Shown here: piece by piece, positions 8,718-32,462 of the stretch
How positions within the stretch are numbered: the stretch's first letter is position 1
Layout of the letters: every line of letters begins with the position of its first letter
Source: an uncultured Actinomycetes bacterium
GTDB taxonomy: Bacteria; Actinomycetota; Acidimicrobiia; Acidimicrobiales; RAAP-2
NCBI GenBank assembly: GCA_903825765.1
Contig: CAIKBU010000035.1
Span: 1-32,835 of the forward strand
Direction of reading: 5' to 3'
Length of the DNA: 32,835 nucleotides
Position numbers and translations under genes: made by a program
The notes under the pieces: generated by a model
Seen by the model: the letters and a program-made list of their open reading frames with translations, nothing else
The model's database searches: none
Told to the model about the DNA's origin: nothing

Positions 8718-9227
8718 TTAAGAAGCGTCGGACGATGCAGCCAAACGGGCGTAGTGGGCGCGCAGATCACCACATTCGACGCAGATACTCTCGGGCACGA
8801 GACCGAATCGAATACCCCAGCCGAAGAGGGTGCACCCTAGGCAGTACCCGAAAAAGCCTTCGAGGGATGCCGCGATAGCGAGTGGCACCAGAATCCACCG
8901 AGCGGTACTGAATCCGTTCAAGTAGCACACGATATCGGTGGCAACGCAGAACGTGAGGCCAATGAACTGGGCAAACCGTTTCGGTGGTCCCGGAACAAAT
9001 TTTTGCCAAGCGGTCAAACGGGGTCCCGCGACGCGAACAGCAAATTGACCGAGCGGCGACATGGTTGGTCCGGTCGCAACTCGCGCGAGGAACCCGTAGG
9101 TGAGTGGTGCGAGAAGCCACGACCAGCCGGTGACGAGTGCACCAAGGCTCATCGCGACCACGCCAAGGGCCACGGTACGGGCGGCCGCATCATTGACGGG
9201 ATTAGGAAAGGAGAAGAAGCGTTTGAT
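8718..9227 (-). CDS. DUF4395 family membrane protein, probable ATC start
   Basis: A membrane protein of 169 residues with about four hydrophobic segments and conserved cysteines near the end (FGYCLGC and SICVECGDL). DUF4395 proteins start with a short F-P-N-P-V-N motif; here FPNPVNDAAARTV is encoded in frame (9209 down to 9171) but upstream of the first ordinary start, GTG 9173. Between that motif and the in-frame stop at 9257 no ATG, GTG, TTG or CTG occurs. ATC 9227 lies 7 bases after a TAGACT -10 and would give a basic start (MKRFFSFPNPVN). ATT 9230 is the alternative, 6 bases after TATAGA. Only the start is uncertain; a conservative annotation would begin at 9173 and lose the motif. It lies directly downstream of a TauE/SafE exporter. 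Confidence 0.85.
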   Translation of the reverse strand: MKRFFSFPNPVNDAAARTVALGVVAMSLGALVTGWSWLLAPLTYGFLARVATGPTMSPLGQFAVRVAGPRLTAWQKFVPGPPKRFAQFIGLTFCVATDIVCYLNGFSTARWILVPLAIAASLEGFFGYCLGCTLFGWGIRFGLVPESICVECGDLRAHYARLAASSDAS

Positions 9228-9234
9228 AATTCCT

Positions 9235-9240
9235 AGTCTA
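9235..9240 (-). promoter_or_regulatory. -10 element of the DUF4395 gene
   Basis: TAGACT on the minus strand ends 7 bases before ATC 9227. An overlapping TATAGA (9242-9237) ends 6 bases before ATT 9230. No Shine-Dalgarno sequence fits in the remaining space. Confidence 0.5.
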
Positions 9241-9263
9241 TAGGTAGGAAATAGTCATCTGCT

Positions 9264-10031
9264 TTACACCAGTAGTCGCACCGTCGTGCCGAGCCCGAGG
9301 GCGATTATGACGAAACGGACCGTGCGTGGCGTCATGCGCTGGAGCATCATCGTGCCAACGGCCCCACCGAGCAACGTACCCACCATGATGGCCGCTACCG
9401 CTGAACCAACGAGGTGCCCGCGGACAAGGAAGACGACCGAACTCGTAAGGGCGGTCAGACCGGCCAAGACGTTACGGAGTCCCTGCAGTTCGCGGAGTTC
9501 GAACGGTAAGGAAACGGCCATAACGGCCAGCAACATGATGCCGAGACCCGCCCCGAAATAACCGCCGTAGACGGCACACAGTGCGATACCGATGCGCAGG
9601 CCCCACCAGTGACCCCTCCCGGAGGGGTGGAGTGTGGCCAGTCGAGCGCTGATGCGGGGCGCGAAGGCAAACAGCACGGTGCCACCGAGGACGAGCCACG
9701 GTACAACCGCTCGAAATGCACCGGGTGGAAAGAATAGAAGGAGCCCACACCCCACGAGGGCGCCCAGAACGCACGAAGGCACGAGCGAAAGTATGAGATC
9801 TCGGTGGCCACGTAAGTCGGTGCGAAAGCCCCGTATCCCTCCCACGTAGCTGGGCACGACACCCACCGTCGTCGTCGTGTTGGCCACCAAGGCGGGAATG
9901 CCGAGGGAGAGCAAGGTGGGGAAAGCGATAAAGGTGCCGCCCCCCGCGATGCCGTTCGCAATACCCGCGCCGACCCCCGCGACCAGTTCAATCACACAAC
10001 GCAGCTGGGGGGTGAGAACTAGGGTCCACAT
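9264..10031 (-). CDS. TauE/SafE family anion (sulfite/organosulfonate) exporter
   Basis: A 255-residue polytopic inner-membrane protein with about eight hydrophobic segments in two similar halves. Each half starts with a Gly-rich motif typical of the TauE/SafE (former DUF81) family: AGIANGIAGGGTFIAFPTLLSLG near the N-terminus (shown by its ends AGIAN...SLG) and GGYFGAGLGIMLL in the middle. The family moves sulfite, sulfoacetate and related anions, but substrate cannot be read from sequence. ATG 10031 lies 7 bases after a TAGGAT -10 with no ribosome-binding site, so the mRNA is probably leaderless. A DUF4395 gene follows 36 bases downstream with its own -10. Confidence 0.92.
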   Translation of the reverse strand: MWTLVLTPQLRCVIELVAGVGAGIANGIAGGGTFIAFPTLLSLGIPALVANTTTTVGVVPSYVGGIRGFRTDLRGHRDLILSLVPSCVLGALVGCGLLLFFPPGAFRAVVPWLVLGGTVLFAFAPRISARLATLHPSGRGHWWGLRIGIALCAVYGGYFGAGLGIMLLAVMAVSLPFELRELQGLRNVLAGLTALTSSVVFLVRGHLVGSAVAAIMVGTLLGGAVGTMMLQRMTPRTVRFVIIALGLGTTVRLLV

Positions 10032-29971: not shown

Positions 29972-31432
29972 TCACGGAGTGGCCCACACCACGGAGTGAC
30001 TCGTGGTGCTGATGCTCACGCCGCCTTGATTGGTAACGCGGAGTTCGTCGTGGGGTTGAGCGGGTACCGCGCTCGACCAAACAACTGCACCGCTCGTAGT
30101 GGCCGTCACGAGGTTGCCGTCGGGGCGCAGTTCGGTGGCAACGCCTCCCACGTGACGTCCATCGCGCCAGAGGACCTGCTGGTCGGCGCCGAACAGTGTG
30201 AGCTCGCCCGTTGTGCGCTGCAGAAGGCGACAACGTCCATCGGGTGACGAGACGTACCATCCGGGTCGAAGCAGCGCCCCAGTGCGCATCGTGGTGAGCG
30301 TGGTCGGCGTAGTAAATAACGCGCGGGCGCCCTCCGCAAGGGTGAGCGAGCCATTGGCGTTTAGGTGAAGCGCTCCCGACGTTGCGCTGGTGTTCGTCGA
30401 CCAGACCACCGTGCCAGCTGCTGAGCGGAGGGCGAGCACGCCGCTGCGGAAACTCGCAGAAGCATTCGGGCCGGCAGCCACGGGGGCCACCCACATCACT
30501 GGTCCACCGACCTCGTGGTAGTTCAACTTCCCCTCGGATGAGACGGACAACGCAAACTGCCCATGGGGTGAGAGTCGCTTCTGGCCAACACGCAAGACGA
30601 CACCGTCACCAACGGTGGTGGAGGCAGATGGTGGTGATGGAATTGCCGGGTCACCACAGGTATTAGGGGGTCCACTTCGGCCGAGCAAGTCAACGAAGCG
30701 GTAGCCGTGGGTGAGAAACCAGCGAATGATTGTCGGGAGCGCTGCCACCGTGGCCGGCATGTCGATGGGCTGATTGTGGAGAAGTACGACGGGGTGGTCT
30801 TGACCCTGCGCTTCGGCGATGACGTTGCGTTCGATGTAGTTAATCCAATAACTCGACCCCGAGCCTCGGGCCTCCCAGTCACCCCCACCGTCACTCCACA
30901 TCCACAACGACATATCGAGTTGGTTCGCCATGGCGATGGTGTCGTTGTTGTAGTCACCGTAGGGGGGGCGAAAGACGCAGTCCACGGTCGACGTGAGTGC
31001 GCGTTGTTGACGATCTACTTGCGTCATCTCCTCGAGTTGATTGGAGGCGGGAAGAAGTGCCATATCGGGATGGCTCACCGTGTGGTTGCCAAGGAGGTAG
31101 CCCGCGGCGCGCTCATTGAGTAGCGACGAGGTGTAGTCAGCTATCCCGTAGCCGACGTTGAAAAAGGTGGCGCGAACGTGAAACGAGTTGAGAATTGCAA
31201 GAATTGCGGGGGTTGAACGGCCCGGCCCATCATCGAATGTGAGTGCGACGGTCTTTGCCCCAGTCGCAATCGTGGGCGCCGTATTTGACACCCCACTGCT
31301 GTAGGGCGGGCATGAGGTGAGTGGGAGGGACTGCGCGATCGTTGCGGGGACGGCAGGCGCGCTGTTTACCCCGAGGCCACACACCATGATGGTGCCGGCG
31401 ATGACACCTCGCCACGAAGTAATTGTTCTGAT
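29972..31432 (-). CDS. Secreted NodB-type polysaccharide deacetylase with bulb-lectin domain, probable ATC start
   Basis: An exported protein of 486 residues if started at ATC 31432. The NodB domain (about 55-255) shows TFDDGP (D67, D68), H117 and H121 in NHTVSHPD, RPPYGDYN, the DWEARG motif and LLHNQP (H219), all catalytic or metal-binding positions of carbohydrate esterase family 4, which removes N-acetyl groups from peptidoglycan or other glycans. A bulb-type mannose-binding lectin region (about 275-486) with repeated G-xLxL and VWST/VWSS elements follows. The first ordinary start (ATG 31387) falls inside the hydrophobic core of the signal peptide. Going upstream, no ATG, GTG, TTG or CTG occurs before the in-frame stop, while ATC gives MRTITSWRGVIAGTI and a proper signal. 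Confidence 0.9.
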   Translation of the reverse strand: MRTITSWRGVIAGTIMVCGLGVNSAPAVPATIAQSLPLTSCPPYSSGVSNTAPTIATGAKTVALTFDDGPGRSTPAILAILNSFHVRATFFNVGYGIADYTSSLLNERAAGYLLGNHTVSHPDMALLPASNQLEEMTQVDRQQRALTSTVDCVFRPPYGDYNNDTIAMANQLDMSLWMWSDGGGDWEARGSGSSYWINYIERNVIAEAQGQDHPVVLLHNQPIDMPATVAALPTIIRWFLTHGYRFVDLLGRSGPPNTCGDPAIPSPPSASTTVGDGVVLRVGQKRLSPHGQFALSVSSEGKLNYHEVGGPVMWVAPVAAGPNASASFRSGVLALRSAAGTVVWSTNTSATSGALHLNANGSLTLAEGARALFTTPTTLTTMRTGALLRPGWYVSSPDGRCRLLQRTTGELTLFGADQQVLWRDGRHVGGVATELRPDGNLVTATTSGAVVWSSAVPAQPHDELRVTNQGGVSISTTSHSVVWATP

Positions 31433-31438
31433 GTGGTC

Positions 31439-31444
31439 ATGCTA
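31439..31444 (-). promoter_or_regulatory. -10 element of the deacetylase gene
   Basis: TAGCAT on the minus strand ends 6 bases before ATC 31432. An ATG overlaps it at 31440 but is out of frame. Confidence 0.5.
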
Positions 31445-31507
31445 CGTCGCGCTCGACGTGTGGTCTCTCAAAAGGCCCTTGAGTCCACCAAGCAACGAGA
31501 CGATTGG

Positions 31508-31513
31508 TAGCCT
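31508..31513 (+). promoter_or_regulatory. -10 element of deoC
   Basis: TAGCCT ends 7 bases before ATG 31521; leaderless type. Confidence 0.6.
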
Positions 31514-31520
31514 GACTGGC

Positions 31521-32462
31521 ATGACCGCAGCGACGACCCAAGCACCGACGCTCACTGGTACGGCACTGCGGGGCGTCCTCGCCGGGCTCGCCGGCGTCGA
31601 TGCCGTGGGGCTCGAGGCCAGAGTGGCAAAACTCGGTACCCGCTCACTGAAGGGCGACACCAAGCGTCGGGCCATCGATCTCGCCATCACGATGGTCGAC
31701 CTCACCACGCTCGAAGGTGCTGACACCCCGAGTCGGGTGCGGGCCCTTTGCACGAAGGCCTGGCACCCTGACCACGGCGACCCCACCACCCCGAGTGTCG
31801 CGGCGGTCTGTGTCTACCCCGACCTCGTCGCGGTGGCGAAGGAGGCGTTGAGTGGTGCCGACGTCCAGGTGGCCTCCGTGGCCACCGCCTTTCCATCGGG
31901 AAGGTCCTCTCGGGCGGTAAAACTGCTCGACGTGACCGAGGCCGTGGCCGCCGGCGCGGATGAGATTGACATGGTCATCGACCGCGGAGCCTTCCTCTCG
32001 GGTCGCTACGAACACGTCTTTGAGGAGATTGTGGCGGTCAAGGCGGCGTGCGGGTCGGCCCACCTCAAGGTGATTCTCGAGACGGGCGAACTCGTCACGT
32101 ACGACAACATCAAGAAAGCCTCCTGGCTGGCCATGCTCGCCGGTGCTGACTTCATCAAGACCTCAACCGGCAAAGTGGGCGTGAATTCGACCCTGCCCAC
32201 CGCCCTGGTCATGCTCGAAGCGGTGCGTGATTATGCGACACTCACCGGCTCAGTGGTGGGGGTCAAGGTAGCCGGCGGTATCCGCACGACGAAGGACGCA
32301 CTCAAGTACTTGGTGGTCGTGGATGAGACGGCCGGATCGACGTGGCTGCACCCCGCTACCTTCCGCTTCGGTGCCTCCGCACTCCTCAATGACCTGCTGT
32401 TGCAGCGACGCAAGCAGCGCACCGGTGCCTACGGCCGACCTGACGTATTCTCGGGGGACTGA
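31521..32462 (+). CDS. deoC: Deoxyribose-phosphate aldolase
   Basis: A 313-residue class I aldolase splitting 2-deoxyribose-5-phosphate into acetaldehyde and glyceraldehyde-3-phosphate. The Schiff-base lysine is K213 in DFIKTSTGK, the proton-relay lysine K249 in GVKVAGGIRT and the aspartate D150 in DEIDMVID. The protein is longer than E. coli DeoC (about 260), mainly at the N-terminus and in a C-terminal tail, resembling other actinobacterial forms. ATG 31521 is fixed by the -10 spacing; a longer frame from 31317 crosses the divergent promoter region. An aldehyde dehydrogenase gene follows after one base, fitting disposal of the acetaldehyde product. Confidence 0.96.
   Translation: MTAATTQAPTLTGTALRGVLAGLAGVDAVGLEARVAKLGTRSLKGDTKRRAIDLAITMVDLTTLEGADTPSRVRALCTKAWHPDHGDPTTPSVAAVCVYPDLVAVAKEALSGADVQVASVATAFPSGRSSRAVKLLDVTEAVAAGADEIDMVIDRGAFLSGRYEHVFEEIVAVKAACGSAHLKVILETGELVTYDNIKKASWLAMLAGADFIKTSTGKVGVNSTLPTALVMLEAVRDYATLTGSVVGVKVAGGIRTTKDALKYLVVVDETAGSTWLHPATFRFGASALLNDLLLQRRKQRTGAYGRPDVFSGD

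Follow-up and report, generated by a model that had tools for sequence, protein, structure and literature searches.

Near-cognate start codons are known in bacteria, above all in infC, the gene for IF3, which begins at AUU or AUC. AUC, AUU and AUA are described as rare bacterial starts (PMC9094748), and in Caulobacter 0.25% of the mapped starts are listed as other near-cognate codons (PMC4117421). The leaderless mRNAs of E. coli are reported to use AUG, with GUG, UUG and CUG much weaker, and in three actinobacteria, Mycobacterium smegmatis among them, GUG leaderless starts are reported to work better (PMC9031893). Mycobacterial leaderless mRNAs have been defined as beginning with RUG, and mutated start codons there reduced reporter output but did not abolish it (PMC9094748). 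In vitro, weak third-base pairs are excluded by IF3; with 1.5 uM IF3, AUC gave no product when fMet was carried by an initiator with anticodon UAU or AAU in place of the natural CAU (PMC10158994). How the 70S ribosome chooses a codon at a 5' end that has no Shine-Dalgarno is presented as an open question (PMC9031893). In a partial literature search, mostly of titles and abstracts, we did not find a leaderless gene with an AUC or AUA start described.

The window is the whole 32,835-nt stretch of DNA that we analysed. It is one contig (C35) of the 1.75-Mb genome of an uncultured soil-type actinobacterium, in 129 contigs and 96% complete. Two of its genes appear to start at ATC in a leaderless arrangement, and the first of them has the following features.

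29972..31432, minus strand: secreted polysaccharide deacetylase (NodB domain) with a C-terminal lectin region, 486 aa, from profile matches
31361..31432, minus strand: predicted signal peptide given an ATC start, from hydropathy and the -3/-1 rule only
31387-31385, minus strand: ATG, the first canonical in-frame codon, within the hydrophobic core of the signal peptide
31432-31430, minus strand: ATC, putative leaderless start codon, 40 residues ahead of a conserved Cys (38-52 for the best candidates in the family)
31438-31433, minus strand: spacer GACCAC, 6 bases between TAGCAT and ATC, sequence read
31444-31439, minus strand: -10 box TAGCAT, read directly, matrix score 7.9 at a gap of 6 from ATC
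31521..32462, plus strand: divergent neighbour with a leaderless-type start, TAGCCT-N7-ATG 31521, sequence read

The protein can be placed among the NodB polysaccharide deacetylases by its PF01522 match, well above the cut-off (E 3.7e-28, 98.4 bits against 23.1), and by its TFDDGP and HxxxH motifs. The NodB motifs TFDDGP, HTVSH (the HxxxH) and RPPY are all present in the open 486-aa frame. The C-terminal part (29972-30900, minus strand), fused to the NodB domain, has weak similarity to models of B-lectin and of lectin-like bacteriocin (putidacin): the B_lectin match (PF01453) has E 1.3e-5 and 26 bits, under its cut-off of 32.4, and the lectin-like bacteriocin model gave 58.6 bits for residues 398-484, far under its cut-off of 275. 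An orthologue with 52% identity is present in the MAG Acidimicrobiaceae bacterium palsa_657. The divergent neighbour is presumably deoxyribose-phosphate aldolase-like. The promoter region between the two genes (31444-31521) is short, with leaderless spacing on both strands.

On the minus strand the start region reads CGACG TAGCAT GACCAC ATC AGA ACA ATT ACT TCG TGG CGA GGT GTC ATC GCC GGC ACC ATC ATG GTG. The first half of the TAGCAT box is itself an in-frame stop (TAG, 31444-31442), and between it and ATG 31387 we read no in-frame ATG, GTG, TTG or CTG. By eye, GACCAC directly ahead of ATC 31432 offers no Shine-Dalgarno. Given the ATC start, the predicted signal peptide has two Arg and a hydrophobic stretch with the core IMVCGLGV, and cleavage after residue 24 is one of four sites allowed by the simple -3/-1 rule. 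An earlier note on this DNA had said that TAGCAT stands exactly 6 bases before the ATC, that no usual start precedes 31387, which it put inside the hydrophobic core, and that starting at the ATC gives basic residues, a core and a cleavage site. The sequence agrees with the first two claims, and hydropathy and the -3/-1 rule agree with the third.

We surveyed 489 kb of the source genome (28%, window included), where a simple codon model predicted 434 genes, and tallied how often a TANNNT box stands ahead of each kind of in-frame codon close to a predicted gene start. At gaps of 6 and 7 bases, respectively, the box precedes 34 and 17 of 579 ATG codons and 37 and 15 of 719 GTG codons. The same counts were 2 and 2 of 339 for TTG, 1 and 4 of 504 for CTG, 3 and 3 of 452 for ATT, 2 and 2 of 438 for ATC (including both ATC codons studied here) and 0 and 1 of 71 for ATA. 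Internal ATG and GTG codons, taken from 264 kb as a control, had TANNNT in 0.1-0.2%, a figure that is biased low because internal codons at gap 6 cannot hold TAA or TAG. The enrichment before ATG and GTG bears out the earlier reading of a 6-base gap as the leaderless spacing here, and it is the signature of many leaderless genes limited to ATG and GTG. We did not find leaderless TTG above background in the source genome, and the local leaderless rule looks strict.

We then applied a -10 matrix built from 125 leaderless sites, none of them in the window. Only 5 of 18,343 in-frame codons other than ATG and GTG near predicted starts reach the 7.9 of ATC 31432, compared with 20 of 1,005 ATG and GTG codons, so the context of this ATC is beyond chance. 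An altered initiator tRNA was rejected as an explanation: in the 40 stretches sampled from other parts of the genome we found a single tRNA-Met of initiator type (L033:4270-4346), and it is an ordinary one with anticodon CAU, the GGG/CCC anticodon stem and, by reading, a mismatched 1-72 pair.

The NodB-lectin protein was matched in 22 of the 99 genomes of the genus (own included). We kept the 19 with a usable N-terminus and left out three weak partial matches (G069, G070 and G074); two further rows were second pieces of the genes in G089 and G072. Candidate starts were scored from 28 to 62 residues ahead of the conserved Cys-Pro. The chosen starts lie 38-52 residues from the Cys (own 40, L003 42, L004 41, L058 42, L018 38). 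Twelve members have [TC]ANNNT at a gap of 6 or 7 and two more have AANNNT at a gap of 6; the other five have no good -10 box (L057, L005, L006, L008 and L063), and their starts are guesses. For L004 and L058 there is also a shorter GTG (28 and 29 residues) with a fair box (3.8 and 3.2), weaker than that of the chosen start (6.0 and 6.4).

Seventeen of the 19 chosen starts (own included) are ATG or GTG, one is the ATC of our genome, and one is an ATA in genome G114, which belongs to another species. The G114 gene (L062, on C7; also in L115) reads TAGCAT-TGAGGC-ATA AGA CTT CGC. From its upstream TGA to the ATG adjoining the Cys, which lies beyond the signal peptide, there is no in-frame ATG, GTG or TTG. 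By hand count, its ATA is aligned with the GTG of a relative (L007) and is at most one residue from the ATG of another (L061). In -10 score the two near-cognate members, ATA and ATC, rank above the other 17 (8.5 and 7.9, against at most 7.8). We regard the ATA as an independent second case, apparently a separate change in a separate assembly.

The second ATC gene of the window was found at some distance from the first.

8718..9227, minus strand: DUF4395 gene, 169 aa, PF14340 with E 1.4e-29, present in 95 of 99 genomes of the genus (own included)
9227-9225, minus strand: ATC, leaderless-type start, in a column where all 89 relatives read have ATG or GTG
9240-9235, minus strand: -10 box TAGACT, sequence read, matrix score 4.9

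Its start region is TAGACT-AGGAATT-ATC AAA CGC TTC TTC TCC TTT CCT AAT CCC GTC. We could read the start column in 90 of the 95 matching genomes (G084, G097, G088, G115 and G007 were left out), and it holds 65 ATG, 24 GTG and one ATC, that of the source genome alone. TANNNT precedes the start in all 90 loci, with a gap of 7 in 69 and of 6 in 21. Because the column and the gap hold in every locus, the start position at ATC 9227 is hardly in doubt. The box is ordinary by itself, with 243 of 18,343 non-start codons reaching 4.9. Directly ahead of the ATC is another near-cognate codon, ATT 9230, and only three bases separate the ATC from an AGGA, which by eye is not a Shine-Dalgarno at normal distance. 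The protein has no deviations at 45 near-invariant columns. As 83 of the 90 loci pass likewise, this is a mild test, and it speaks only against visible decay or an abundance of errors.

The two genes thus have the same arrangement in the DNA: a homologous start position, a common -10 box and spacing (TAGCAT-N6-ATC 31432 and TAGACT-N7-ATC 9227), an intact frame, and recurrence. In both, the codon at this place in the source genome is ATC, where AUG or GUG is expected of a leaderless gene, and neither has an in-frame ATG, GTG or TTG upstream of its conserved N-terminus. For the deacetylase, the earlier note had proposed a start at ATC 31432. The position is strongly supported by the orthologue lengths, the -10 boxes, the TAGCAT-N6-ATA orthologue and the second ATC gene; that the AUC is translated, leaderless and with formyl-Met, we would put only conditionally.

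Our preferred reading, held with moderate confidence, is that in both genes AUC has taken the place of AUG or GUG and works as a leaderless start, though a weak one. RNA polymerase would use the TAGCAT box and begin the transcript at the A of ATC 31432, giving an mRNA that starts 5'-AUC. An ancestral AUG or GUG at 31432 would have changed to AUC, and the 70S ribosome would still initiate there, inefficiently, using formyl-Met-tRNA(CAU) despite a C:C mismatch at the third base. This would yield the whole signal peptide and little protein. DUF4395 (AUC 9227) would have undergone the same change, and so would the other species' NodB-lectin orthologue, there to AUA. What we infer from the DNA arrangement is where the transcript begins, that AUC initiates, that Met is the first residue and that output is low. 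It is the recurrence in a second gene and a second species that lifts the AUC start above a curiosity.

The strongest competing explanation, which we consider unlikely, is start loss: the ATG or GTG of both genes changed to ATC, and they are now silent or nearly so, as recent pseudogenes that have not decayed. The ATC positions do match the ancestral starts of both genes, AUC is a poor initiator in published work (PMC10158994), and the NodB-lectin gene is patchy in the genus, three of its 22 matches being weak and partial. However, both frames are fully open, DUF4395 is kept in nearly every genome and is clean at its near-invariant columns (by the mild test above), and the second species has ATA in a NodB-lectin orthologue that is also open. 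Neither gene has decay of the frame or of invariant residues, although a recent loss would not show such decay. The sequence alone cannot tell a recent start loss from a working weak start.

Less probable still is an error of consensus or assembly, or a minority strain variant, in an organism that really has ATG or GTG at these places. These are metagenome contigs, and as a caution both ATC cases of the source genome are on a single one of 33 kb. At columns where the nearest relative compared (G112) has ATG, our genome reads ATC in 5 of 114 cases in window genes (the reverse in 1 of 115) and in 29 of 1,183 elsewhere (the reverse in 15 of 1,167), which is slightly higher in the window but not decisive. 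On the other side, two errors would hardly fall by accident on two start codons within 33 kb, DUF4395 is intact at its 45 near-invariant columns, and the window has long open frames, a non-systematic check for frameshifts. The earlier note had held that orthologues with ATG at this position would suggest a sequencing error. Most orthologues do have ATG or GTG, so this is partly the case, but the ATA orthologue has the same TAGCAT-N6 arrangement and comes from another assembly. Together with the other ATC gene, this independent ATA makes a base-calling error unlikely.

A true NodB-lectin start elsewhere is very improbable, and we rejected all three candidates: ATT 31423 also yields a signal peptide, with one Arg, but its -10 score is weak (-4.2); ATG 31387, without a signal peptide, has no -10 box (-11.8) and by eye no Shine-Dalgarno, and at 25 residues from the Cys is too short for the family; and ATG 31440, the nearest ATG, is out of frame, has no -10 box at the right distance by reading and needs a frameshift as an extra event.

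How common a weak leaderless AUC might be was estimated from two kinds of search. A strict scan of three sampled genomes looked for TANNNT-N6/7-X with no ATG, GTG or TTG anywhere between the upstream stop and the 14th codon after X. It matched 2 of 69 ATC codons (31432 and 9227), 1 of 12 ATA codons (the G114 gene) and 1 of 38 ATT codons. We took the ATT match as chance, as it is upstream of a gene that starts with ATG. There were 33 further matches over 19 other codons, 27 of them at least 16 codons ahead of the coding core. Leaderless AUC is not supported as a habit of the whole genome, since the strict scan of 489 kb (28%) of the source genome gave just the two window cases.

The second kind was comparison between genomes. 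Among the matches listed for 172 gene pairs between the source genome and G112, where the NodB-lectin gene could not be paired, we recognised a leaderless near-cognate start in DUF4395 alone. The 48 other flagged rows were rejected by eye as conserved promoters before ATG or GTG, antisense frames, or the TrmH case described below. A looser comparison over all the loci collected flagged 9 of 154 genes in the source genome, 13 of 121 in G112, 2 of 60 in G114 and 10 of 79 in G103; by eye only three of these are near-cognate leaderless candidates, namely the NodB-lectin and DUF4395 genes of the window and the NodB-lectin gene of G114. Both comparisons favour the window, as the G112 stretches were partly chosen for synteny and the loci were chosen for these two genes. 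We also looked at the three genes adjoining DUF4395. A canonical start was available in all but one of 236 usable rows, and in the exception the alignment begins at residue 37; 17 of 253 rows had been dropped where the alignment began late. This test is lenient, with any canonical codon upstream of or near the alignment start counting. Six matches to a leaderless TTG in these rows were set aside as chance, each having another canonical in-frame codon upstream. Near-cognate leaderless starts thus appear rare, with 2 of 19 NodB-lectin genes and 1 of 90 DUF4395 genes.

AUC starts of the leadered kind probably exist in the same genome. The gene that we named infC from its sequence (L050, minus strand) reads AAGGAG-TCGGTT-ATC GCA ACA GTG CCT, and in G112 (L169) it reads AAGGAG-ATCGTT-ATC GCA ACA GTG CCT. 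A start at this ATC, with the Shine-Dalgarno AAGGAG six bases upstream, is probable but not certain, because in both genomes a TTG is in frame 16 codons upstream. Ahead of infC there is an inverted repeat GCGACGTCA...TGACGTCGC that by eye differs slightly between the two species. A TrmH/RlmB-type methyltransferase gene is directly after rplT (L050, about 8884-9693, minus strand; also in L169). In these two genomes there is no ATG, GTG or TTG before codon 13 of the conserved protein, whose homology begins at residues 1-6 in 96 of 99 genomes. An ATC is at the conserved beginning and a CTG at codon 6 is the alternative. We consider an ATC start in a coupled, leadered setting probable for this gene.

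If the weak leaderless AUC is real, it bears on a working rule, that leaderless 70S initiation needs AUG or GUG; use of AUC and AUA would make this rule not absolute. The natural AUC and AUA leaderless genes and their orthologues with ATG or GTG in the same column are ready-made test pairs. Programs that call starts would misplace or shorten such genes: the next canonical start would cut most of the NodB-lectin signal peptide and the conserved FPNPVN stretch of DUF4395. More tentatively, and as something we would not yet bet on, leaderless 70S initiation in this genus may accept AUC and AUA in general, with a strong -10 box and a weak start together setting a low output of certain envelope genes.

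Compared with known systems, the closest are the leaderless genes of actinobacteria such as mycobacteria, which like the genes here have a -10 box 6-7 bases ahead, no usable Shine-Dalgarno and coding from the presumed transcript start; the genes here differ in starting with AUC (AUA in one orthologue) and not with AUG or GUG. Genes of the infC kind share with them an AUH codon where no canonical start is available. However, infC has the strong Shine-Dalgarno AAGGAG, whereas the two ATC genes appear to be leaderless. With the NodB-family polysaccharide deacetylases (PF01522) the protein at 29972..31432 shares its domain, catalytic motifs and apparent secretion, and its gene differs from theirs by the C-terminal lectin-type region and by its start codon.
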